A stretch of 64,000 nt of DNA, taken from positions 1 to 64,000 of the forward strand of contig JBDKTA010000004.1 in NCBI GenBank assembly GCA_039680605.1. Direction: 5' to 3'. Every line of letters begins with the position of its first letter. The stretch's first letter is position 1. The position numbers and the translations under genes are program-made. Positions 9,876 to 36,027 of the stretch are shown piece after piece. Below the pieces are notes generated by a model. The model did not search any database, had not been told where the DNA came from, and saw only the letters and a list, made by a program, of their open reading frames with translations. Origin of the DNA: Planctomycetaceae bacterium. GTDB taxonomy: Bacteria > Planctomycetota > Phycisphaerae > SM23-33.

Positions 9876-9960
9876 AGTAGCACGGGCGTCTCGCCCGTGA
9901 GTAGCATGGCCGTCTCGGCCATGTCCCCGCAATTTGCATGGGCAAGATGCCCATGCTACT
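9876..9960. repeat. three REP-like palindromes before the GH95 gene
   Basis: Three GTCTC-centred or related palindromes stand in a row: CACGGGCGTCTCGCCCGTG (9881-9899), CATGGCCGTCTCGGCCATG (9905-9923) and GCATGGGC...GCCCATGC (9936-9956). They belong to the same family as the arrays in etfB and after topA. Confidence 0.85.
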
Positions 9961-18785: not shown

Positions 18786-20410
18786 GGAATCAACTCTCGC
18801 TGCCGCAGCAGTTGCACGAGCTGTTCGACCGCCCTGGCGGCTGAGGCGTCGTCGCCGGCGGGGAGCTTCTGGCACTGGCGGGCGACCTTGGGCTTGAAGA
18901 TTTTCACCACGCGCGTGGGCGAGCCGGCCAGCCCCAGCCGCGCCGGATCGACATCCAGATCCGCCGCCGTCCAGACCGGAATCTCCAGGCTCTTGGCCCG
19001 CAGTTTTCCCGCCAGCGTCGGAAGGCGCGGGTCACCGATCTCCTTGACGACCGTCAGCACCGCCGGGGTGTCGGCCTCGAGCACCTCGTGGCCGTTCTCG
19101 ACCAGCCGCCGCACCCGCACGAAACCATCGGCGGGGTCTATCGACGAGACATACGTTACTACCGGCAGATCGAGCCAGGCCGCAATCGCCGGCCCCACCT
19201 GCCCCGTGTCCCCATCGGTCGCCCGCTCGCCGCAGAGGATCAGTGTGGCATGGGCGTCTCGCCCATGCTCTTGCTGTGTGGCATGGGCGTCTCGCCCATG
19301 CTCTTGGCTCTGTTCCTCATACTCCTGCCAGTTGATCTTTTCTCTCCATTTCCACTCCTGCAGTCCCGCTTTGTCCGGGTTCTTCCAGGCATACTCGATC
19401 GAATGCCACAGGTCCTCCTCGTCGCGAATGAGATGATCGTAATACTCGCTCTGCCAGAAGGGACCTTCTCGTCCAAGCAATTCATTAGCCTTGTGCGCCG
19501 TAAACGACTTTAAGGAGTGGAGCGACTTGGACAATTCGAACTCCGCCGACGGCCTGACAACCAAATGCACGTGATTGGGCATGATGCACCAGGCCAGCAG
19601 TTGGTAGCGGATGCCGTCGAAGTGTTTCAAAGCATCGGCAACGATAGCCGCCACCTCTGGCCTCCGCAGGTGGCAGTCCCCATGCCCCGCGTCGAGATAG
19701 GCCTGGACCTTTTCGGAATACAGCGCGTCCAAATCCTCCTGTTCCTGCCGCGTCAACTGTCTCCCTTTGGCAGCGGCGCGTTTAACTATCTCCTCGCGTT
19801 CGTTCTGCCATGCTTCCAGGACCGATTGAGGCATCGAGTCAGCCAGCCGAAAGTTCACTGCGTATGCCGCTTCGTCACGAGTCCAATGTGGCAGACAGGC
19901 CCCTTGTCGCTGCTGGATCAGTTCGTAATCCGCCCCCTTTGTGGGCGGGACGCCTGTGCCATCGGGGAGCATGGGCGAGACACCCGTGCCACAGGGGGAG
20001 CATGGGCGAGACGCCCATGCCACACGGGGAGCATGGGCGAGACGCCCATGCCACGCGGGAAGCATGGGCGGGACGCCCATGCCACACAGCTTCCTGATGG
20101 CGGCCGCGAGGACGTAGCTCGTCGCCCAGGTGTCGGAGCCGGCGAAGGCTTTGTCCGACAGCAGGACGGCCGCATCGGCGCCCATGGCGACGGCTTCTTT
20201 CAGGGCGGTGGCGGCTTTGGGCGGACCCATCGAGACGACGACGACCTCGCCGCCACACTGGGCCCGCAGGGCCAGTGCGGCCTCGATGGCGTACAGGTCC
20301 AGCGGGTTGACGATGGCCTCGAGCCCCTCGCGGATCATGGTCCCGGTAACCGGGTCCATGCTGACCTTGGAGGTCTCGGGCACTTGCTTGATGGGAACGA
20401 TAATGCGCAT
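18782..20410 (-). CDS. etfB: electron transfer flavoprotein beta subunit interrupted in frame by a RAYT transposase
   Basis: The frame encodes 542 residues, about twice the usual 255-265. The first 108 residues are ordinary EtfB (MRIIVPIKQVPETS start, NPLDLYAIEAALAL, DTWATSYVLAAAIRKL). The sequence from base 19243 leftward is also ordinary EtfB, resuming at LILCGERATDGDTGQVGP and running to the C-terminus through RRLVENGHEVLE and FKPK. Between them are 843 bp (281 codons) of REP palindromes and a RAYT transposase. In typical EtfB the two flanks are joined by a four-residue GDYD-like turn, which is absent here. Neither half shows a frameshift or stop. The fusion could be translated whole if the insert sits in a surface turn before the central beta strand. 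I prefer the ATG at 20410 to a GTG two codons upstream. It is coupled to etfA. Confidence 0.88.
   Translation of the reverse strand: MRIIVPIKQVPETSKVSMDPVTGTMIREGLEAIVNPLDLYAIEAALALRAQCGGEVVVVSMGPPKAATALKEAVAMGADAAVLLSDKAFAGSDTWATSYVLAAAIRKLCGMGVPPMLPAWHGRLAHAPRVAWASRPCSPCGTGVSPMLPDGTGVPPTKGADYELIQQRQGACLPHWTRDEAAYAVNFRLADSMPQSVLEAWQNEREEIVKRAAAKGRQLTRQEQEDLDALYSEKVQAYLDAGHGDCHLRRPEVAAIVADALKHFDGIRYQLLAWCIMPNHVHLVVRPSAEFELSKSLHSLKSFTAHKANELLGREGPFWQSEYYDHLIRDEEDLWHSIEYAWKNPDKAGLQEWKWREKINWQEYEEQSQEHGRDAHATQQEHGRDAHATLILCGERATDGDTGQVGPAIAAWLDLPVVTYVSSIDPADGFVRVRRLVENGHEVLEADTPAVLTVVKEIGDPRLPTLAGKLRAKSLEIPVWTAADLDVDPARLGLAGSPTRVVKIFKPKVARQCQKLPAGDDASAARAVEQLVQLLRQRELIP
19245..19301. repeat. two REP palindromes at the 3' end of the RAYT insert
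   Basis: Two identical 24-bp units (19245-19268 and 19278-19301; GTGGCATGGGCGTCTC then GCCCATGC) stand 33 bp apart. They read as repeated HGRDAHAT peptides in the etfB frame. Confidence 0.9.
19939..20085. repeat. REP array with 31-bp period at the 5' end of the RAYT insert
   Basis: Four units start at 19969, 20000, 20031 and 20062, exactly 31 bp apart, each a GCATGGGCG..CGCCCATGC-type palindrome. A fifth, decayed unit lies at about 19939-19962. Because 31 is not a multiple of three, each unit is read in a different frame, yet no stop codon appears in the etfB reading direction. Confidence 0.9.
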
Positions 20411-26278: not shown

Positions 26279-28861
26279 ATGGCGACACAAAAAAAGACAA
26301 CTAAACGAACCCCACGCAAGGCCGCCCCGCGGTCCACCGGTGGCGGCAGCGCGGGCGTGGGCAAGAACCTGGTGGTCGTCGAGTCCCCCGCCAAGATCAA
26401 GTCCATCAGCAAATATCTGGGCCCGGGGTACGTGGTCAAGGCCTCGATGGGCCATGTCCGAGACCTGCCCAAGAAGAACATCGGCGTCGACGTCGACCAC
26501 GATTTCGCGCCCGCGTACGAACCGGTAGCCGGCAAGGAACGTGCCATCACCGAACTGCGCAAGTTCGTCAAGGCCGCCCCGACGGTTTACCTGGCGACGG
26601 ACTTAGACCGCGAGGGCGAGGCGATCGCCTGGCACCTGTCGGAACTGTTCCACCTGCCCCCCGAGCGGGTGCGCCGCGTGGTATTCAACGAGATCACCGC
26701 CTCGGCGATTCGTGCGGCCTTTGAGCACCCGCGCGAGGTCAACATCAACAAGGTCAACGCCCAGCAGGCCCGGCGCATCCTCGACCGCCTGGTGGGCTAC
26801 GAAGTCTCGCCGCTGCTGTGGAAGAAAGTTTCGCCCGGTCTTTCCGCCGGGCGCGTGCAGACGGTGGCCGTGCGGCTGATCGTCGAGCGCGAGCGCCAGA
26901 TCGAGGCCTTCACGCCCGAGGAGTACTGGCGCGTCGGGGCGATCTTCTGCCTCGACGGCGCCAAGGCCGCCGCCCTGACGCGCGACTGGCAGGCGTTCAT
27001 GGCCCAGCGCGATGAAAAGGGCAACGCCCCCACGCGCGACGCCCAGCAGGAGTTCCTGACCAAACGCGGCGGCTTCCGCGCCGAACTGGCGACCTGGAAG
27101 GGCAAGAAATTCTCGGCCGACAACGAGCAGCAGGCTCTGGAAGCGGCCCGGGCGATGGGCCTGGCGGTCAGAGACATCCTCCGCAGCACCGACCCGCAGG
27201 GCAAAGGCCCCGCGAGCAGCCGCGTGGAGGTTGTCGGCGCCCCCGACGCCAAGGGTCCGGTCTTCACCGTCGGCGAGATCCAGCAGCGACAGACGCGCTC
27301 GCGACCGCCGGGGCCCTTCACCACCGCCTCGCTGCAGCAGGCCGCCAGCGTGCAGCTTCGCTTCGGCGCCGCCCGCACCATGCGAATCGCCCAGGGCCTG
27401 TATGAGGGCGTCGAGGTCCCCGGCGAGGGCTCGGTCGGACTCATCACCTACATGCGCACCGACAGCACCAGTCTCTCTGCCGAGGCGCTGGACAACGTGC
27501 GAAAGTTCGTCGGCGAGAAGTTCGGCCCCAGGTATCTGCCCGACAAGCCCAACTTCTACGGCTCGACCAAGCGCACGCAGGAGGCCCACGAGGCCATCCG
27601 CCCCACCGACGCCAACCGCCGCCCCGAAGACCTGCAGGGCTGTCTCACGCCCGAGCAGTACCGCCTGTATCAACTCATCTGGCGGCGATTCGTCGCCTGC
27701 CAAATGTCGGCCGCGGAGTGGCTGGTGACCGAGGCGGCCATCTCGGCCGCCACGCCCGCCGGCGAGGCGGTCTTCAAAGCGATGGGGCGGCGGCTGGGCT
27801 TCGACGGATATCTGCGCGTGGCCGGCCTGCCCAAGAGCGGAGACCAGATCCTGCCCCCGCTGCAGACGGGCAACCGCGCCTGGCCGGTCGAGCTGCTGCC
27901 GACGCAGCACTTCACGCAGGGTCCGCCGCGGTACACCGAAGCCTCGCTGGTCAAGGCCCTCGAAGCCGACGGCATCGGCCGCCCCAGCACGTACGCGGCG
28001 ATCATCGGGACCATCCAGGACCGCCAGTACGTCGAGCTGCGCGACCGGAGCTTCTACCCGACGCACCTGGGCGTGGTCGTGACCGACAAGCTCGTGCAGG
28101 CCTTCACCGATATCTTCGACGTGCGATTCACCGCGGCGATGGAAGACCGCCTGGACAAAGTCGAAGAGGCCCAGGTCGACTGGGTGCGCGTCCTGCGCGA
28201 TTTCTACAAGCCCTTCCAGCGCGAGCTGAAGAAGGCCTTCGACGGCATGGTCCATGCCAAGGCCGAATCGCAGCCCAGCGACTACACCTGCGATCAGTGC
28301 GGCAAGGGCATGGTCTACCGCTTCAGCAAGACCGGGCGGTACCTGGCATGCACGGGCTACCCCGAGTGCAAAGCCACGCACCCCGTCGACGAGAACGGGC
28401 AGATCGCCCGGCCGAAGATGGTCGACGTGGCCTGCCCGCAGTGCGGCAAGGAGATGCAGTTCCGCAAGGGGCGGTTCGGTCCTTTCCTGAGCTGCTCGGG
28501 CTATCCCGACTGCAAGGGCATCGTGAACCTCGACCGCAAGGGGCTGGTCAAGCAGCCTTCGCCGCCGGCGCTGGTGGTTGAAGAGGTCAAATGCCCCAAG
28601 TGTTCGGCGCCGCTGAACCTTCGCCGCGGAAAACGCGGACCTTGGCTGGCGTGCTCGGCATTTCCCAAGTGCCGCGGGCGGTTCCCCTGGGCCGACCTCG
28701 ACCCCGCCCTGGCCAAGCGCCTCGAAGCCGCCTTGGTCGAGCACGAAAAAGCCCACCCGCAGAAGATCATCACCGATATGGCCGGCCAGCCCCTCTCACC
28801 CACGTTCAAGCCCCAGACCGCAGGCGCCGCGGAAGAACCCGCTACGGAAGTCCAAGAGTAG
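26279..28861 (+). CDS. topA: DNA topoisomerase I
   Basis: The 860-residue type IA topoisomerase relaxes negatively supercoiled DNA. The TOPRIM domain opens with LVVVESPAKIKSISKYLG and holds the DLDREGEAIAWHL acidic motif. The active-site Tyr is Tyr391 in GLITYMRTDS. Three C-terminal four-Cys zinc ribbons follow (CDQCGKGM, CPQCGKEM, CPKCSAPL, each with a later CxxxPxC pair). A basic Ala/Thr/Lys leader precedes TOPRIM. I choose the ATG at 26279; an in-frame GTG at 26249 would add 10 residues. The TAG stop lies inside the first unit of a REP array, so the extreme C-terminus has been shaped by the repeat. Confidence 0.95.
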   Translation: MATQKKTTKRTPRKAAPRSTGGGSAGVGKNLVVVESPAKIKSISKYLGPGYVVKASMGHVRDLPKKNIGVDVDHDFAPAYEPVAGKERAITELRKFVKAAPTVYLATDLDREGEAIAWHLSELFHLPPERVRRVVFNEITASAIRAAFEHPREVNINKVNAQQARRILDRLVGYEVSPLLWKKVSPGLSAGRVQTVAVRLIVERERQIEAFTPEEYWRVGAIFCLDGAKAAALTRDWQAFMAQRDEKGNAPTRDAQQEFLTKRGGFRAELATWKGKKFSADNEQQALEAARAMGLAVRDILRSTDPQGKGPASSRVEVVGAPDAKGPVFTVGEIQQRQTRSRPPGPFTTASLQQAASVQLRFGAARTMRIAQGLYEGVEVPGEGSVGLITYMRTDSTSLSAEALDNVRKFVGEKFGPRYLPDKPNFYGSTKRTQEAHEAIRPTDANRRPEDLQGCLTPEQYRLYQLIWRRFVACQMSAAEWLVTEAAISAATPAGEAVFKAMGRRLGFDGYLRVAGLPKSGDQILPPLQTGNRAWPVELLPTQHFTQGPPRYTEASLVKALEADGIGRPSTYAAIIGTIQDRQYVELRDRSFYPTHLGVVVTDKLVQAFTDIFDVRFTAAMEDRLDKVEEAQVDWVRVLRDFYKPFQRELKKAFDGMVHAKAESQPSDYTCDQCGKGMVYRFSKTGRYLACTGYPECKATHPVDENGQIARPKMVDVACPQCGKEMQFRKGRFGPFLSCSGYPDCKGIVNLDRKGLVKQPSPPALVVEEVKCPKCSAPLNLRRGKRGPWLACSAFPKCRGRFPWADLDPALAKRLEAALVEHEKAHPQKIITDMAGQPLSPTFKPQTAGAAEEPATEVQE

Positions 28862-29110
28862 CACGGGCGTCCCGCCCGTGAGTGGCATGGGCATCCCGCC
28901 CATGCTCTTGCTGTGTGGCACGGGCGTCCCGCCCATGCTCCCGCTGTGTGGCATGGGCGTCCCGCCCATGCTCTTGCCGTGTGGCATGGGCGTCTCGCCC
29001 ATGCTCCCCGACTTTACGGTCAGGGACACGCACAACGGAGTTGTGCGTGGCACCTGTCCCGCGCCCAGTTCCCCGATCTCCTGCATGGCCGAGACGGCCA
29101 TGCCACACAA
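28857..29110. repeat. REP array after topA plus two other palindromes
   Basis: After a CACGGGCGTCCCGCCCGTG unit that overlaps the topA stop, four units begin at 28882, 28915, 28948 and 28981, exactly 33 bp apart. These are followed by the CACGCACAAC palindrome (29019-29055, also found inside the dehydrogenase gene) and a CATGGCCGAGACGGCCATG unit near 29085-29103. No gene is supported in this 340-bp gap. Confidence 0.9.
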
Positions 29111-29731: not shown

Positions 29732-29765
29732 TCTCATAATCCTCTCATGGGGAAGAGGCTATCGT
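29732..29765 (+). promoter_or_regulatory. direct-repeat operator and promoter, PepSY-like copy 2
   Basis: TCTCAT half-sites at 29732-29737 and 29743-29748 are 11 bp apart. A -10-like TATCGT lies at 29760-29765, 17 bp from the second half-site start. The same arrangement precedes PepSY-like copy 3 and the response regulator. Confidence 0.65.
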
Positions 29766-29807
29766 TCCTGCGCTGGAATGTTCGCCGACATAACCAGGAG
29801 CATGGAC

Positions 29808-30410
29808 ATGAACGGCATGGTGAAGATAGCGGCTGTATTCTGCGCGGTGGCGGTTTTGGCGTTGGGCGCAGGTGCGATGGCCGCCCCCAAAGGCAAGAAG
29901 GGCAAGTCGCCGCGCATCGAGTTGCCCGACGCCGTCAGGGCCTCGATGAACAACGTCATCCCCGGTAGCGCTATCACCCGTATCACTCTGCAAACCCGTG
30001 ACGGCGTTGAAGTCTATCACGCCCTGCTTACCAAGAGCCCCGCCGAATGCCGCGTAGCTGTCGCCGCCGACGGCACACTCATTGCCGTTGTGACCCCTGT
30101 CAAGGAAGCCGACCTGCCCCAGCCGGTCAAGGATACTCTGGCCGCCCAGGCCAAGGACGCGGTCTTGCTCGAGACCGCCAAGGCAGAAATCTCAGCCGAA
30201 ATCAAAGACGCAAAGGTGACCGTGCTCGACAAGCCAAAGACCCGGTACGAGGCAGAAGTCAGGCCTACAGCCGGCGCGGCGATCGCTCTTGAAATCGCTC
30301 CGGACGGCACGCTGATCAAAAAGGAACAGTCCAAGCAGACCCAGAAGCCCGCCAACGCCGCCAAGAAGAGCAAGGCCGCCCGGAAGCAGCCCGCCGCTGC
30401 CGGCGAATAA
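29808..30410 (+). CDS. secreted PepSY-like protein (copy 2)
   Basis: The 200-residue product has a signal peptide (MNGMVKIAAVFCAVAVLALG, then AGAMA) and two PepSY-like units: LPDAVRASMNNVIPG with RDGVEVYHALLTK and ADGTLI, then LPQPVKDTLAAQAK with ADGTLIKKE-like strands. It ends in a Lys/Ala-rich tail (NAAKKSKAARKQPAAAGE). I take the ATG at 29808 because AGGAG lies seven bases before it; longer frames are unlikely. It is a close paralogue of copy 3, with the same signal peptide and tail, and has its own direct-repeat operator. Confidence 0.8.
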   Translation: MNGMVKIAAVFCAVAVLALGAGAMAAPKGKKGKSPRIELPDAVRASMNNVIPGSAITRITLQTRDGVEVYHALLTKSPAECRVAVAADGTLIAVVTPVKEADLPQPVKDTLAAQAKDAVLLETAKAEISAEIKDAKVTVLDKPKTRYEAEVRPTAGAAIALEIAPDGTLIKKEQSKQTQKPANAAKKSKAARKQPAAAGE

Positions 30411-30445
30411 GGACTCAACCTGTGTGGCGACAGAAAAACCGTCTC

Positions 30446-30479
30446 TCTCACAGTTCTCTCACATGGCGAAATGTATGCT
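30446..30479 (+). promoter_or_regulatory. direct-repeat operator and promoter, PepSY-like copy 3
   Basis: TCTCAC half-sites at 30446-30451 and 30457-30462 are 11 bp apart, with a -10-like TATGCT at 30474-30479. This repeats the geometry of the sites at 29732 and 31318. About 100 bases of leader precede the ATG. Confidence 0.65.
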
Positions 30480-30579
30480 CCTTCTCATTCAGGCGTCTCA
30501 TGCGGTGCCCCGAGACGCCGATCCCGCTGCCGATGCAGGCGGCGGGCAATACGCGGGCGCCGGAAAAGGAATCGGAACT

Positions 30580-31188
30580 ATGAACAGCGTACTGAAGTTT
30601 GCGGCGGCCCTGTGTGCGGTGGTGGTGCTCGGACTCGGCGTCGACGCGATGGCCGCCCCCAAAGCCAAGGCGGGCAAGGCCAAGGTCGAAGTGCCCGAAG
30701 CCGTCAAGGCGACCATGGACAAGGCCGTCGAAGGCGGCAAAGTCGGCAAGGTCGAGAAAGAGACTGAAGACGGCGTGGACGTCTACGAAGCCGTCATCAC
30801 CAAGGACGGCGCCAAGTGCGAAGTCTCCGTCGCCGCCGACGGCACGCTGATCGAGATCGAAAGCGTCGTCAAGGAAGCCGACCTGCCCCAGGCCGTCAAG
30901 GACGCCGTCGCCAAGGAAATCAAGGACGGCAAGATCATCAAGGCCGAAAAGGAAGAAGTTCACGCCGAGATCAAAGAGGGCAAGGTCACCAAGCTCGATG
31001 CCCCCAAGACCGAGTATGAAGTGAAGGTTCGCGCCGCCGGCAAGGTCACTGAGATCGAGCTCTCTGCCGACGGAACCGTGATCAAGAAGGAAGAGATCAA
31101 GAAGGATGACAAGCCCGCCAAGGCTGGCAAAAAGGGCAAGGCCGGCAAGAAGACCGAAGAAGCCGCTCCCGCGGCCGCTGGAGAATAA
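30580..31188 (+). CDS. secreted PepSY-like protein (copy 3)
   Basis: The 202-residue product has a signal peptide ending near DAMA and two PepSY-like units (VPEAVKATMDKAVEG with EDGVDVYEAVITKDG; LPQAVKDAVAKEIKDG with KTEYEVKVRAAG), each ending in ADGTLI or ADGTVI. The tail is strongly basic (PAKAGKKGKAGKKTEEAAPAAAGE, broken at KK). Lys and Glu are far richer than in neighbouring genes. The ATG at 30580 follows AAGGAA. A strong hairpin terminator follows, separating it from the two-component genes. Confidence 0.8.
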   Translation: MNSVLKFAAALCAVVVLGLGVDAMAAPKAKAGKAKVEVPEAVKATMDKAVEGGKVGKVEKETEDGVDVYEAVITKDGAKCEVSVAADGTLIEIESVVKEADLPQAVKDAVAKEIKDGKIIKAEKEEVHAEIKEGKVTKLDAPKTEYEVKVRAAGKVTEIELSADGTVIKKEEIKKDDKPAKAGKKGKAGKKTEEAAPAAAGE

Positions 31189-31216
31189 CGCGCGCTCGTA
31201 GTGCTTGAACCATCAT

Positions 31217-31255
31217 CGCCGGCTGGGACAGAGCATGTCCCGGCCGGCGGTTTTT
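31217..31255 (+). terminator. rho-independent terminator after PepSY-like copy 3
   Basis: Arms at 31217-31230 and 31236-31249 pair over 14 bp (one G-U) around a five-base loop. They are followed at once by G and a run of five T, the classic intrinsic terminator form. Confidence 0.9.
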
Positions 31256-31317
31256 ACGCGCAGCCGCCTCGTGCTCCCTGCCCTGTGGCACGAGCGTCTC
31301 GCCCATGCCACTGGGAC

Positions 31318-31350
31318 TCTCATGCTACTCTCATGCGCGGCGGGTATAAT
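31318..31350 (+). promoter_or_regulatory. direct-repeat operator and near-leaderless promoter of the response regulator
   Basis: TCTCAT half-sites at 31318-31323 and 31329-31334 are 11 bp apart, and a perfect TATAAT stands at 31345-31350. The ATG at 31359 is only eight bases after the -10 box, so the mRNA should be leaderless or nearly so. The same site before two PepSY-like genes points to autoregulation by the encoded regulator. Confidence 0.75.
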
Positions 31351-31358
31351 CGCCGGAT

Positions 31359-32033
31359 ATGAAGTTGCTCCTGATCGAAGACTACGCCCCGCTGCAGAAA
31401 TCGCTGGCCCGGGGTCTGCGCGAAGCCGGCTATGCCCTGGACGTCTCCGGCGACGGTAAGGAAGGGCTCTGGCTAGCCACGAGCAACGACTACGACGTCA
31501 TCATCCTGGACCTGATGCTGCCGGGCCTGGACGGGCTGAGCCTGCTGACGCGCCTGCGGGCGGCGGGCAAGAAGACCCACGTGCTGATCCTGACGGCCAA
31601 GGACGGCCTGGGCGACAGAGTGCGCGGGCTGGACCTCGGGGCCGACGATTATCTCGTCAAACCCTTCGCCTTCGACGAGCTGCTGGCCCGCCTGCGGTCG
31701 CTGGTGCGCCGCGGGTACCAGGAGAAGAACCCGCGGCTGGAGATCGGACCGCTGGCGATCGACACCACCGCCCGCAGCGTTCGCTGCCGCGGGCAGGACG
31801 TGCCCCTGACCGCCCGCGAGTTCGCCCTGCTGGAATACCTGGCCATGCGGACCGGACAGGTCGTCTCTCGCAGCGAGATCTGGGAGCACCTCTACGAGTT
31901 CAACGACGACGCCACCAGCAACGTCGTCGACGTCTACGTCGGATATCTGCGCCGCAAACTCGACGATCCCGGCGGCGCCTCGCTCATCCGCACCGTCCGC
32001 GGGGCCGGCTATATCCTGGAAGATCCGGAATGA
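31359..32033 (+). CDS. OmpR-family response regulator
   Basis: The 224-residue regulator has a receiver domain (acidic pair ED near residue 8, phospho-acceptor Asp51 in ILDLMLPG, Lys in DDYLVKPFAF) and a C-terminal winged-helix DNA-binding domain (LTAREFALLEYLA, NVVDVYVGYLRRKLDD, TVRGAGYIL). Its sequence is nearest to the QseB/PmrA/CusR group. Its stop overlaps the kinase start in ATGA. OmpR-type regulators bind direct repeats about 11 bp apart, matching the sites found upstream of this gene and of two PepSY-like genes. Confidence 0.95.
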   Translation: MKLLLIEDYAPLQKSLARGLREAGYALDVSGDGKEGLWLATSNDYDVIILDLMLPGLDGLSLLTRLRAAGKKTHVLILTAKDGLGDRVRGLDLGADDYLVKPFAFDELLARLRSLVRRGYQEKNPRLEIGPLAIDTTARSVRCRGQDVPLTAREFALLEYLAMRTGQVVSRSEIWEHLYEFNDDATSNVVDVYVGYLRRKLDDPGGASLIRTVRGAGYILEDPE

Positions 32034-33475
32034 TCCGATCGCTCAGAACCCGTCTGCTGGTGGGAGTGCTGCTGGCCGTCGCCTGCCTGCTGACGCTGTT
32101 TGGCCTGGGCGTGTACGAGTCGTTCCGCCGCGCCCTGCTGGCCGAGTTCGACCAGTCGCTGCTGAGTACCGCCCGCACGCTGATGGCGGCGATCGAAACC
32201 GAAGGCAAGAAGACCGAACTGGAGCTGGACCTCAAGAAACTGCCCCAGTTCGCCCCCGGCCAGGAAGACGCTTATTTTCAGGCCTGGCTGACCGACGGCA
32301 AGTCCCTGATCCGCTCGCCGTCGCTGGGCAGCGGCGACCTGCCGATCATCCACGCCGGCAGCGGCGAAGCGATCTTCGAGAACATCGTCCTGCCCAGCGG
32401 TCGACCCGGACGCGCCGTCGCCCTGGCCGACGAGTCGCGCCTGGGCGGGCAGCGCCGCCCGGCCCCCAAGAAGAAGCCGCTTCCCATGATCACGCTGGTG
32501 CTGGCCCAAGGCACCGCCGCCATGCAGGCCCGACTGGCGCTGCTGGCGGTGCTGCTGTCGGCCGGCGGGGGCGCCACGCTGGCGGCCGCCATGGCGGTGA
32601 TGCTCATCGTGGTGCGGCGCGGGCTGGCGCCGCTGAACACGATCGCCCACGAGATCTCCGCCGTCACCAGCGACGACCTGACGTATCGCATCTCCGCCGC
32701 GGGCATGCCCGCCGAAATGACGCCCGTGGCGCACAAGCTCAACGATCTGCTGTCGCGCCTGGAGGATGCCTTCAAACGCGAACGCGGATTCACCTCCGAT
32801 GTCGCCCACGAATTGCGAACGCCGCTGGCGGGAATGCTCGCGACCCTCGAAGTCACCCTCTCGCGCAGCCGCACGGGCAAGGACTACGTCCAGGCGATGG
32901 AAGACTGCATGACCATCGCCGCCCAGATGCAGGCCATGGTCGAAAGCCTTCTCATGCTCGCGAGGCTCTCCAGCGGCAGCCTCGCCCTCCAGCGGCAGGA
33001 GGTGGATCTGGCCGGCGTGGCTGACAACTGCTGGAAGCTGCTATCGGCCCCGGCCGACGCGGCGCCGCCGGTTTTTGAAAACCGCTTGGGCGAACTGCGA
33101 TGCATCGCCGACGCCGACTGCATGGGCATGGTCTTCACCAACCTGCTGAACAACGCCATCACGTACAACCGCCCCGGCGGGCGCGTCTGGACCGACGCCC
33201 TGGCCGAAAACGGTCACGTGCATATCAGCGTCTCGAATACCGGATGCACGCTGCCCGCCGAGGCCGCCGAGCAGGTCTTCGTCCCGTTCTGGCGCGGCGA
33301 CCAGTCGCGCGCGATGACCGGCGTACACGCGGGCCTGGGTCTCTCGCTCGTCCAGCGCAGCATCGAAGCCCAAGGCGGGTCCGTCAAAGCGATCATCAAC
33401 GAAGACGACGGTATCTTCACGATCCGAATGACCTTGCCGGGGGGAGAACAGCAGGCCCTCGATCCTCGCCCCTGA
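32030..33475 (+). CDS. sensor histidine kinase
   Basis: The 481-residue membrane kinase has an N-terminal membrane segment (LLVGVLLAVACLLTLFGLGV), a periplasmic region of about 130 residues, a second membrane segment (about residues 165-200), a HAMP linker and the H-box SDVAHELRTPLAG with phospho-acceptor His260. The N-box NLLNNAITYN and G-box GLGLSLV form the ATPase domain. It is coupled to the response regulator and likely senses an envelope signal. The neighbouring PepSY-like proteins, secreted to the same compartment, could act as outputs or as modulators of its sensor region. Confidence 0.93.
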   Translation: MIRSLRTRLLVGVLLAVACLLTLFGLGVYESFRRALLAEFDQSLLSTARTLMAAIETEGKKTELELDLKKLPQFAPGQEDAYFQAWLTDGKSLIRSPSLGSGDLPIIHAGSGEAIFENIVLPSGRPGRAVALADESRLGGQRRPAPKKKPLPMITLVLAQGTAAMQARLALLAVLLSAGGGATLAAAMAVMLIVVRRGLAPLNTIAHEISAVTSDDLTYRISAAGMPAEMTPVAHKLNDLLSRLEDAFKRERGFTSDVAHELRTPLAGMLATLEVTLSRSRTGKDYVQAMEDCMTIAAQMQAMVESLLMLARLSSGSLALQRQEVDLAGVADNCWKLLSAPADAAPPVFENRLGELRCIADADCMGMVFTNLLNNAITYNRPGGRVWTDALAENGHVHISVSNTGCTLPAEAAEQVFVPFWRGDQSRAMTGVHAGLGLSLVQRSIEAQGGSVKAIINEDDGIFTIRMTLPGGEQQALDPRP

Positions 33476-33517: not shown

Positions 33518-35362
33518 CTACTTGTTCGTCTGCGGAGGGGTCTTGGGCATCTCGGGGTTGAGGCTCTTGTACATCTCGGCCTGGGCCGCGCCGGTGGCGG
33601 GGGCCTGGCGTCGGGCGGCGCGGGCGTCTTCGAACTGGGCCTGGCCGGCGGGCATTTTGCCGTTGAGCGTCACGACCAGGCGGAACAGGTTGGTCTGCTC
33701 GCTCTTTTCGTTGTTGAAGACAGCCTGATTGAGCGGGTTGAGAACGCGGGCTTCCTGGGCGGCGATCTTGTCGAGCTGTTTGGTGACGGCGTCGCGCGGG
33801 GCCGGTTGCGTCGCGGAGGGCTCTTTCTTTTTCAAATCCTCTTGCGGCTGTGCCTCAGCCACCTGCGTCAGGGGCATGGGCGGGGCGTCGGCGATGGGTT
33901 CGCCAGCCGGGGCTTTCGCCTGGGCCGCCTGCGTCTGGGCGCTGTTGTTGAGCGAGTTGAGGCGGTTGGCGGCGGCGCGCGCGGCGTCGTTGTTCCAGTA
34001 GTCGTAAGAGTTCCGGTCGTTGAAATCCTGCCGCAGCTGGGACGCCTGGGCCGCCCGGGCCGCGGCGGGGGCGGCTTCAACGGGCACCTGCGCCACGTCC
34101 TGCTGGGCGCGGATGACGCTCAACTCGCCGCGCAGGCGCCCGAGCTGGTCTGCGGTGACGAAGGCCTCATATTGCACCTGGCTGTCGTTGTTGACGTTGG
34201 TGAGGTAGTAGTTGCCGATGGTGGCGGCGCCGAGGCTGCGCTGCTCCTTGACCACCAGCGGCCGCACGCCGTTGCGGACCATGGCGTTCTCGATGTCGCG
34301 CTGGGCCACGGCCAGGCTCGAGGTATTGATGACAACGTTGCTGGCCGTCAGGGCGTCGCCCTGCTCGGCGGGGGCGCCCGGCGCGGGGGCGGTGCGTTCA
34401 TCATCGCCATGTCGCTGGGCAACGGTCTGCGGCGGGGCGACAGAGGGCTCGTCCTGCCAGTTCTCGCCGCTGCGGGGCTGGGACTTTTTTTCCAGCACGG
34501 CGACCTGCTGCTCTTGAGCTTTCTCGCCCGCGCGCCGCGGCGGAGTTTCCCGCGGACCGCCCTTGGCCTGGGCCCGCGCCGGTCCGGCGGGCGCCGCGCC
34601 GGCCGCGGTGTCCGCGGGCGCGGGAGCCTTGGCGATGGGCTGCATGTCTTTGGAAGCCTTCTCCACGCTCTTGGGCGCCGGTCGCGCGGATTCGGCGGCG
34701 GCGTACCCGTCTGAAACGCTCTTCTTGCGGAGGCCCGAACTGTCTTCGCCCGAGGCGCGTGCATGGGCCACATCGCGGTTCAGATCGTTCTTCACCTGCC
34801 CGCCCTGAGCGGGAAGCGCGGGGGCGGCCTGAGGCGCTTTGAGGGCTTCGACGGTTCCGTCCTTGCCGGCCAGTTCTGTCTCGCGGCGGGCTTTGCCGTC
34901 AGGGGTTTGGGCATGCTCTGTGTCCGGCGTGGCCGCGGGGGCGCCGGGTTTCTCCGGCGCCTGTTCCGGCGCGCGGGCCAGTTCGCCCAGCTTGTGCGGG
35001 CCTTGCGGTGTGGCATATTTGACGGCATTGACCATCATCACCCCGGCCGCCCCGACGGCCAGCAGCACCACCGCGGCGGCGGCATAGGAGATCCAGCGCA
35101 TCGAGCGGTAGGCTCGTGCCGCCGGCGCCGGCAGCAGGTGGGTGCGTTCAGTGCGGGCCAGCACGTGGCGGACGAAGTCGTCCGCCGTCCGCTCGCGGGG
35201 CAGTTGCCGCAGCAGGTTTCGCGTGGCCTTGAGGCGTTCGAGCTCGCCGGCAAGGTCCTTGTCGTACGCCAGCACTTCGTCGATCTGCCGCACCCGCGAG
35301 GGGCTCAGTTCGCCGTCGAGGTACGCCGACAATTCGTTCGAGATTTCATCACGCTTGTTCAT
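33518..35362 (-). CDS. anti-sigma factor with long extracytoplasmic region
   Basis: The 614-residue protein has an N-terminal anti-sigma domain (ELSAYLDGELSPSRVRQIDEVL...) without the HxxxCxxC zinc motif, one membrane segment near residues 93-112 (ISYAAAAVVLLAVGAAGVMM) and about 500 extracytoplasmic residues. These are mostly Ala/Pro/Gln-rich and low in complexity, with one ordered stretch (about residues 340-430: VVINTSSLAVAQRDIENAM, NYYLTNVNNDSQVQYEAFV) that may be a sensor domain. It is coupled to the ECF sigma gene (overlap of four bases) and should hold that sigma factor at the membrane until an envelope signal releases it. Confidence 0.8.
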   Translation of the reverse strand: MNKRDEISNELSAYLDGELSPSRVRQIDEVLAYDKDLAGELERLKATRNLLRQLPRERTADDFVRHVLARTERTHLLPAPAARAYRSMRWISYAAAAVVLLAVGAAGVMMVNAVKYATPQGPHKLGELARAPEQAPEKPGAPAATPDTEHAQTPDGKARRETELAGKDGTVEALKAPQAAPALPAQGGQVKNDLNRDVAHARASGEDSSGLRKKSVSDGYAAAESARPAPKSVEKASKDMQPIAKAPAPADTAAGAAPAGPARAQAKGGPRETPPRRAGEKAQEQQVAVLEKKSQPRSGENWQDEPSVAPPQTVAQRHGDDERTAPAPGAPAEQGDALTASNVVINTSSLAVAQRDIENAMVRNGVRPLVVKEQRSLGAATIGNYYLTNVNNDSQVQYEAFVTADQLGRLRGELSVIRAQQDVAQVPVEAAPAAARAAQASQLRQDFNDRNSYDYWNNDAARAAANRLNSLNNSAQTQAAQAKAPAGEPIADAPPMPLTQVAEAQPQEDLKKKEPSATQPAPRDAVTKQLDKIAAQEARVLNPLNQAVFNNEKSEQTNLFRLVVTLNGKMPAGQAQFEDARAARRQAPATGAAQAEMYKSLNPEMPKTPPQTNK

Positions 35363-36027
35363 GATGGTTCTATCAGCCAGGTCAACCGGTTCCGCAGCAG
35401 GCAGCGGGCCCGGTGCAGGCGGCTCTTGATCGTGCCCACCGGCAGCTCCAGCACCTCGGCTATCTGCGCGTAATCCAGGTCTTCAACATCTCGCAGCACC
35501 ACGACCACGCGGTACTCGTCTTCCAACTCGTCCACCGCCGCCGCCACGATGCGGTGGATCTCGTCGCCGGCGGCCCCGTCGTGCGGGTCCAGCACGCGCC
35601 GCCCGGCGATGGCGGCCGTCAGCTCCTCGGCCTGGGCGGCCTCTCCGTCATCGTCTCGCCGCGTCAGCGACTGAAACTTCACCCGCCCGTCTCGGCGTCG
35701 ATGGGAGATCGCCAGGTTCGCCGCGATACGAAACAGCCAGGTATAAAATTTGCTTTGCCCTCGAAATTGGCTCAGCCGTTCCATCGCCTTGAGGAACACA
35801 TCCTGGGCCAGTTCCTCGGCATCGGCCCTCCGGCCAACCATGCGAAAGATCACGTTAAAAACACGGTGCTGGTACTTCGTCACCAGCAAGCCGAAGGCTT
35901 CCATGTCGCCCTTGCGGCTGCGGGCCACCAGGTCCGCATCCTCGAAAGAGATCGCCTCGTCGCTCGCCGCGGCGAGAGGTTCGGCGGAAATCTTTCCGGC
36001 CAATATGTCCGACGCGTGATCTGCCAC
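35359..36027 (-). CDS. ECF-family RNA polymerase sigma factor
   Basis: The 222-residue sigma-70 family factor has region 2 (DAFGLLVTKYQHRVFNVIFRMVG-like, with DAEELAQDVFLKAMERLSQFRG) and region 4 (YRVVVVLRDVEDLDYAQIAEVL and GTIKSRLHRARCLLR). A variable acidic linker joins them. It is coupled to the anti-sigma gene. The group resembles SigE/RpoE-like planctomycete ECF factors, whose usual role is envelope stress or a cell-surface programme. Confidence 0.95.
   Translation of the reverse strand: MADHASDILAGKISAEPLAAASDEAISFEDADLVARSRKGDMEAFGLLVTKYQHRVFNVIFRMVGRRADAEELAQDVFLKAMERLSQFRGQSKFYTWLFRIAANLAISHRRRDGRVKFQSLTRRDDDGEAAQAEELTAAIAGRRVLDPHDGAAGDEIHRIVAAAVDELEDEYRVVVVLRDVEDLDYAQIAEVLELPVGTIKSRLHRARCLLRNRLTWLIEPS

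Follow-up and report, generated by a model that had tools for sequence, protein, structure and literature searches.

A response regulator (RR) and a sensor kinase lie here behind three genes for exported PepSY-like proteins, and three of the gaps between these genes carry the same paired hexamer. It is common for PepSY proteins to accompany a two-component system, and most such cases lack an explanation. We asked which protein reads the paired hexamer and whether it ties the PepSY-like genes to the two-component system. The window, by which we mean the whole 64,000-nucleotide stretch that was analyzed, was read together with the rest of its genome and the genomes of relatives.

Three paired half-sites and the genes around them

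The letters of the window give the consensus TCTCAY-N5-TCTCAY at three sites, each in its own intergenic gap (P1-P2, P2-P3 and P3-RR; Table 1). The first-pass annotation had placed pairs of TCTCAT/TCTCAC half-sites, 11 bp apart, upstream of PepSY-like copies 2 and 3 and of the response regulator, and both the positions and the placement are borne out. The 16-17 bp that it gave to a -10-like box was also correct, since the start of the second half-site precedes the start of the hexamer by 17, 17 and 16 nt for boxes 1, 2 and 3. The longer search form that it offered, CTCTCAY-N4-CTCTCAY, describes boxes 2 and 3; box 1 opens with T and matches with one mismatch. The start codon of the RR was set by full-length alignments. 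Because the -10 hexamer of box 3 is so close to this ATG, the RR mRNA is predicted to be leaderless or nearly so. A REP-like palindrome, GTGGCAYGGGCGTCYCGCCCATGC, occurs 15 times in the window (0 expected), at 28858-29106, 31285-31308, 9877-9959 and 19245-20085, and one copy is directly 5' of box 3.

Table 1. Coordinates of boxes, -10 hexamers and genes in the window
Feature	Position	Strand	Details
P1, exported PepSY-like protein, 169 aa	29206-29715	+	ORF; without box upstream
Box 1	29732-29748	+	TCTCAT-N5-TCTCAT; TCTCATAATCCTCTCAT
-10-like TATCGT	29760-29765	+	N11 after box 1
P2, exported PepSY-like protein, 200 aa	29808-30410	+	ORF and ribosome-binding site
Box 2	30446-30462	+	TCTCAC-N5-TCTCAC; TCTCACAGTTCTCTCAC
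-10-like TATGCT	30474-30479	+	N11 after box 2
P3, exported PepSY-like protein, 202 aa, two PepSY-type repeats	30580-31188	+	PF11396
GC-rich hairpin, then T run, in P3-RR gap (terminator or attenuator)	31214-31252	+	
Box 3	31318-31334	+	TCTCAT-N5-TCTCAT; TCTCATGCTACTCTCAT
-10 TATAAT	31345-31350	+	N10 after box 3, 8 nt 5' of RR start codon
OmpR/PhoB-family RR	31359-32033	+	Recognition helix SNVVDVYVGYLRRK, residues 187-200
Sensor histidine kinase	32030-33475	+	2CSK_N, HAMP, HisKA, HATPase

P3 is above the Pfam cutoff for PF11396 (30.3 bits vs 28.3, E 5.4e-7), and P1 (19.8 bits, E 9.8e-4) and P2 (19.3 bits) are under it. P2 and P3 are paralogues of ~50% identity, and P1 is 31-34% identical to them; a position weight matrix (PWM) scan upstream of P1 found no box. 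The AlphaFold model of P3 (core pLDDT > 90) matches five DUF2874/BLIP-like periplasmic structures (Z 14-15.6), those of the Bacteroides DUF2874/PepSY_like proteins 4k61, 4fr9 and 3u1w among its matches, and it scores Z 6.6 against UipA (7ath); sequence identity to these structures is only 14-18%. Structure comparison identified a double PepSY-type fold in P3 only (Z 14.2-15.6).

The RR combines a receiver domain (PF00072, 1.2e-25) with a winged-helix Trans_reg_C domain (PF00486, 1.5e-24). Within NCBIfam, RR and kinase both come closest to the models of the heavy-metal (CzcR/CzcS) types, and each score is under its cutoff: 240 bits against 279 for the RR on the CzcR/SilR/CopR model (cztR_silR_copR, TIGR01387) and 236 bits against 292.6 for the kinase (TIGR01386). 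The modelled periplasmic sensor of the kinase is PDC/PAS-like. Among solved sensors it best matches PhoQ (Z 10.1), with CusS at Z 8.1, a fold that is too general for naming a signal. Just past the kinase, the minus strand (33518-36027) encodes what is probably an ECF sigma factor, together with a long anti-sigma-like protein.

Distribution of the box

With two mismatches allowed, the window alone holds three boxes against 1.27 expected from shuffles, a difference too small to tell the motif from chance, and the tests were therefore widened to the whole genome and to other genomes. The first-pass annotation had held that many copies at random genomic positions would speak against its reading. 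The 5.23-Mb genome (95% complete) has three exact copies of TCTCAY-N5-TCTCAY, all inside 1.6 kb at this locus, and the reversed-pattern control gives 0. Since about one copy per genome is expected (an estimate from base composition), three within 1.6 kb are not due to chance. Relaxing the search to two mismatches plus a -10 adds one site, C64:26296 (one mismatch; control count 4). It is without a convincing gene after it, so we claim no further target in this genome.

Across 397 genomes of the class, the box with its -10 (box, N10-12, TANNNT) gives 64 matches, compared with 4 for the reversed control. An RR of this type is present in 37 of 47 box-bearing genomes and in 40 of 347 box-free ones (Fisher 1.5e-21; both fractions tallied by hand from the class-wide box matches and the RR set). 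In the remaining phylum, box matches are only mildly above control.

The search was also run from the protein side. Eighty-two RRs were picked by protein alone, and 2.5 kb upstream of each was scanned. The exact box stands on the coding strand in 28 of the 82, vs 1 on the other strand, and half-site spacings of 0-4 and 6-20 give 0-1 hits each. An unbiased hexamer scan at fixed spacing returned TCTCAT-N5 as the commonest direct repeat, and its runners-up are codon repeats for acidic tails. Although the -10 was not selected for, TAnnnT starts exactly 10 or 11 nt after the box in 29 of 30 sites. The exact box precedes only 26 of the 53 RRs of at least 59% identity. A PWM adds ~13 loci beyond the exact-box RRs, and for some close RRs with an identical helix no box was found within 2.5 kb upstream.

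The commonest layout in relatives is box, PepSY gene, RR and kinase in one operon. Relatives mostly have a single box, 5' of the PepSY gene, whereas P2, P3 and the RR each own one here. In 9 of the 53 near relatives a housekeeping-type promoter,.TGAC-N16-18-TANAAT, precedes the RR (0.04 expected; L157, L004, L161, L005, L175, L006, L160, L232 and L173). In most cases a GC-rich hairpin comes immediately after it, often carrying a T run and lying 15-25 nt 5' of the RR start; this hairpin could possibly be an attenuator that sets the PepSY to kinase ratio. The P3-RR gap of the window keeps a hairpin, and no.TGAC-N16-18-TANAAT promoter was found there. The PepSY-like proteins of L004, L006, L012 and L160 have long Asp/Glu-rich C-terminal tails after their PepSY repeats, which are absent from P1-P3 of the window and for which a metal-binding role is conceivable.

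Other genes behind candidate boxes were noted in relatives. Near the RR-kinase pair these are DUF347 membrane proteins at L005 (7997) and L010 (1683), and a PAP2 phosphatase and TolC-like genes at L007 (2574, 3562). Far from the RR locus, a box with a -10 precedes exported or membrane metallophosphoesterases in two genomes (L145:2826, L177:5012). The list also includes a YdjC protein (L143), a 7TM protein (L148), Spy-like small proteins, judged by eye (L152, L154), and an unnamed lipoprotein-like family (L146, L147, L184). Most of these genes encode envelope proteins, with every single site a candidate only.

Recognition helices and half-site letters

Each of the 28 exact-box RRs carries the recognition helix SNVVDVY[IV]GYLR. 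The GYLR helix pairs with TCTCAT, and His or Leu at residue 196 mostly with TTTCAT. A generic pattern that left half-site positions 1, 2 and 4 free found 55 sites, where 1.0 would be expected. At 37 of 37 loci with Tyr196, one or both half-sites have C as base 2, and 11 of 12 loci with another residue are without C there; in the His/Leu196 loci base 2 is not C in 10 of 10 and is nearly always T. The association of residue 196 with base 2 has a Fisher value of 4e-10, which, we stress, ignores ancestry. An RR tree built without the recognition-helix columns has only three to four changes, and two well-supported independent pairs agree, which is too few for significance. One clear sister contrast sets L243 (His, TTTCAT) beside L192 (Tyr, TCTCAT). 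Base 4 also varies: L230 has TCTAAT in both half-sites, together with V190T and G195L in the helix. For RRs with GCLR helices, no clear box was found under the fixed geometry.

RR homologues outside the first set have 28 related boxes against 4.8 expected, four of the loci being close to the first set. Three Clostridia-type homologues (L071, L073 and L078) have VYIRYLR helices and TTTAAT-N5-TTTAAT at the same -10 distance, pairs which suggest, from their letters, that a helix-operator code may reach other phyla. By eye alignment, Tyr196 falls at the position of PhoB Arg201, a base-reading residue that hydrogen bonds to a base, a guanine, in the half-site (PMC3973317). We lean toward a recognition code for this RR clade in which residue 196 would set the second base in each half-site (C for Tyr, T for His/Leu) and residues 190 and 195 would help to set the fourth (A for Thr/Leu), with period and promoter spacing fixed and with the code extending to other phyla.

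The reader of the box and the proposed circuit

We consider it very probable that the RR encoded at 31359 has the box as its operator, a putative binding site, because strand, spacing and -10 geometry are kept over dozens of protein-selected loci. The RR is very probably the reader of the box because recognition helix and half-sites change together. The claim of an OmpR-family operator for this RR is strongly supported by conserved geometry and correlated change.

Chance, or a recent duplication of one promoter segment, might also account for the three boxes, and two of them may share descent, given that P2 and P3 are paralogues; dozens of species nevertheless keep the box, the N5-only spacing and the fixed distance to the -10, which leaves this explanation a negligible probability. 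Another regulator, such as the genome's PhoB, might bind instead, with the neighbouring RR a bystander. The box does resemble the Pho box, CTGTCAY-N4-CTGTCAY, in its ~7-bp direct repeat, its 11-bp period, its -35 position and its lead of ~10 nt on the -10, and CTCTCAT differs from CTGTCAT by one base per half-site. A few of the box targets are phosphatases (the two metallophosphoesterases and the one PAP2 protein), and one site lies before an RR that looks PhoB-like (L170). Set against this, box-bearing genomes are strongly enriched for RRs of the present type, and box letters and RR helix vary jointly. The RR itself is not a PhoB by the NCBIfam cutoff (166 bits on TIGR02154, cutoff 296; Tyr at the Arg201 position), and the domain set identified in the kinase is not that of PhoR. 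Binding by another regulator is quite improbable.

The fixed distance to the -10 could also mark a promoter for an alternative sigma factor rather than an activator site, and the window does hold an ECF-like sigma gene (35359-36027) with an anti-sigma neighbour. Perfect direct repeats with a period of one helical turn are, however, typical of OmpR/PhoB regulators, TAnnnT is a -10 of the housekeeping type, and in relatives the box accompanies the RR and kinase and covaries with the RR helix; we find a sigma factor barely credible. It is unlikely, too, that the RR binds the boxes as a repressor and keeps the PepSY genes off while the kinase is active. A regulator seated over the -35 region can also block polymerase, and strand and position are compatible with this, but the 10-11 nt spacing stands in for a -35 hexamer, as at PhoB-activated promoters, and dbfQRS is positively autoregulated (PMC12714742). 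Activation with positive autoregulation is the likeliest reading, because the two half-sites, the second stopping 10-11 nt short of the -10 and the first lying 5' of it, together span the -35 position. A tandem site across that position is the arrangement of PhoB-activated promoters.

Under activation by the RR, the adjacent kinase would phosphorylate the RR, and two RR molecules would occupy the two 11-bp repeats in head-to-tail order; that binding depends on phosphorylation is something we infer. From a box spanning the -35 place, 10-11 nt 5' of the -10, the RR would activate RNA polymerase as PhoB does, and so raise transcription of P2, P3, its own gene and the kinase. In the M. tuberculosis PhoP structure, such repeats are occupied by a tandem dimer, and the spacing is strict (PMC4832192). 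The autoregulated regulon of kinase-regulator pair and PepSY genes proposed in the first-pass annotation gains support from position, with the box heading the PepSY-RR-kinase operon in relatives. In a negative loop, the secreted PepSY-like proteins would meet the periplasmic sensor of the kinase and turn it down, P2 and P3 damping the kinase that induces them. We somewhat favor such feedback by analogy with V. cholerae, in which the PepSY protein DbfQ binds the DbfS sensor and shifts DbfS to phosphatase (PMC12714742); contact and sign are carried over from that system. Judging by the kinds of gene involved, an envelope disturbance or a metal would be the likeliest guess for the stimulus.

Systems of this kind are already known. 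DbfQRS of V. cholerae (PMC12714742) and the related BqsRS with PA2658/PA2659 likewise have one or more small exported PepSY proteins encoded beside a membrane kinase and its OmpR-type partner, here within four genes of the pair, and such systems show positive operon autoregulation and, in some species, more than one PepSY copy. The present locus is unlike DbfQRS in its three PepSY-like proteins, in the two PepSY-type repeats of P3, in the separate box promoters of P2, P3 and RR, and in that PepSY-kinase binding is presumed. A DbfR box was not found in the text of PMC12714742.

Other operators share the architecture of the box and differ in letters. The PmrA box has head-to-tail half-sites 5 bp apart that bind tandem dimers, with half-sites CTTAAT/CTTAAG (PMC3973317); the M. 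tuberculosis PhoP box has 7-mers with a 4-bp spacer, also for tandem dimers, and the half-site TCACAGC (PMC4832192). For UzcR, compared together with the heavy-metal CzcR/SilR/CopR regulators, the motif is CATTAC-N6-TTAA (PMC8963506). As a protein, the RR is under the NCBIfam equivalog cutoff for PmrA/BasR (212 bits, cutoff 330) and under that for CreB (138 bits, cutoff 273). The CreB box, TTCAC-N6-TTCAC with period 11, resembles the TTTCAY variant of the His/Leu196 regulators, which is a resemblance only. In a literature search missing most subscription journals, with papers on the repeat judged by title or abstract, we found no description of the box, its taxonomic spread or the helix-operator correlation, and nothing relevant on an MprA box.

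The locus offers a testable, lineage-wide circuit with a defined operator, so that its regulon may be readable in uncultured planctomycetes from their genomes. Helix and operator changing in pairs would provide a natural data set on site choice by OmpR/PhoB regulators, a problem usually approached through mutagenesis.
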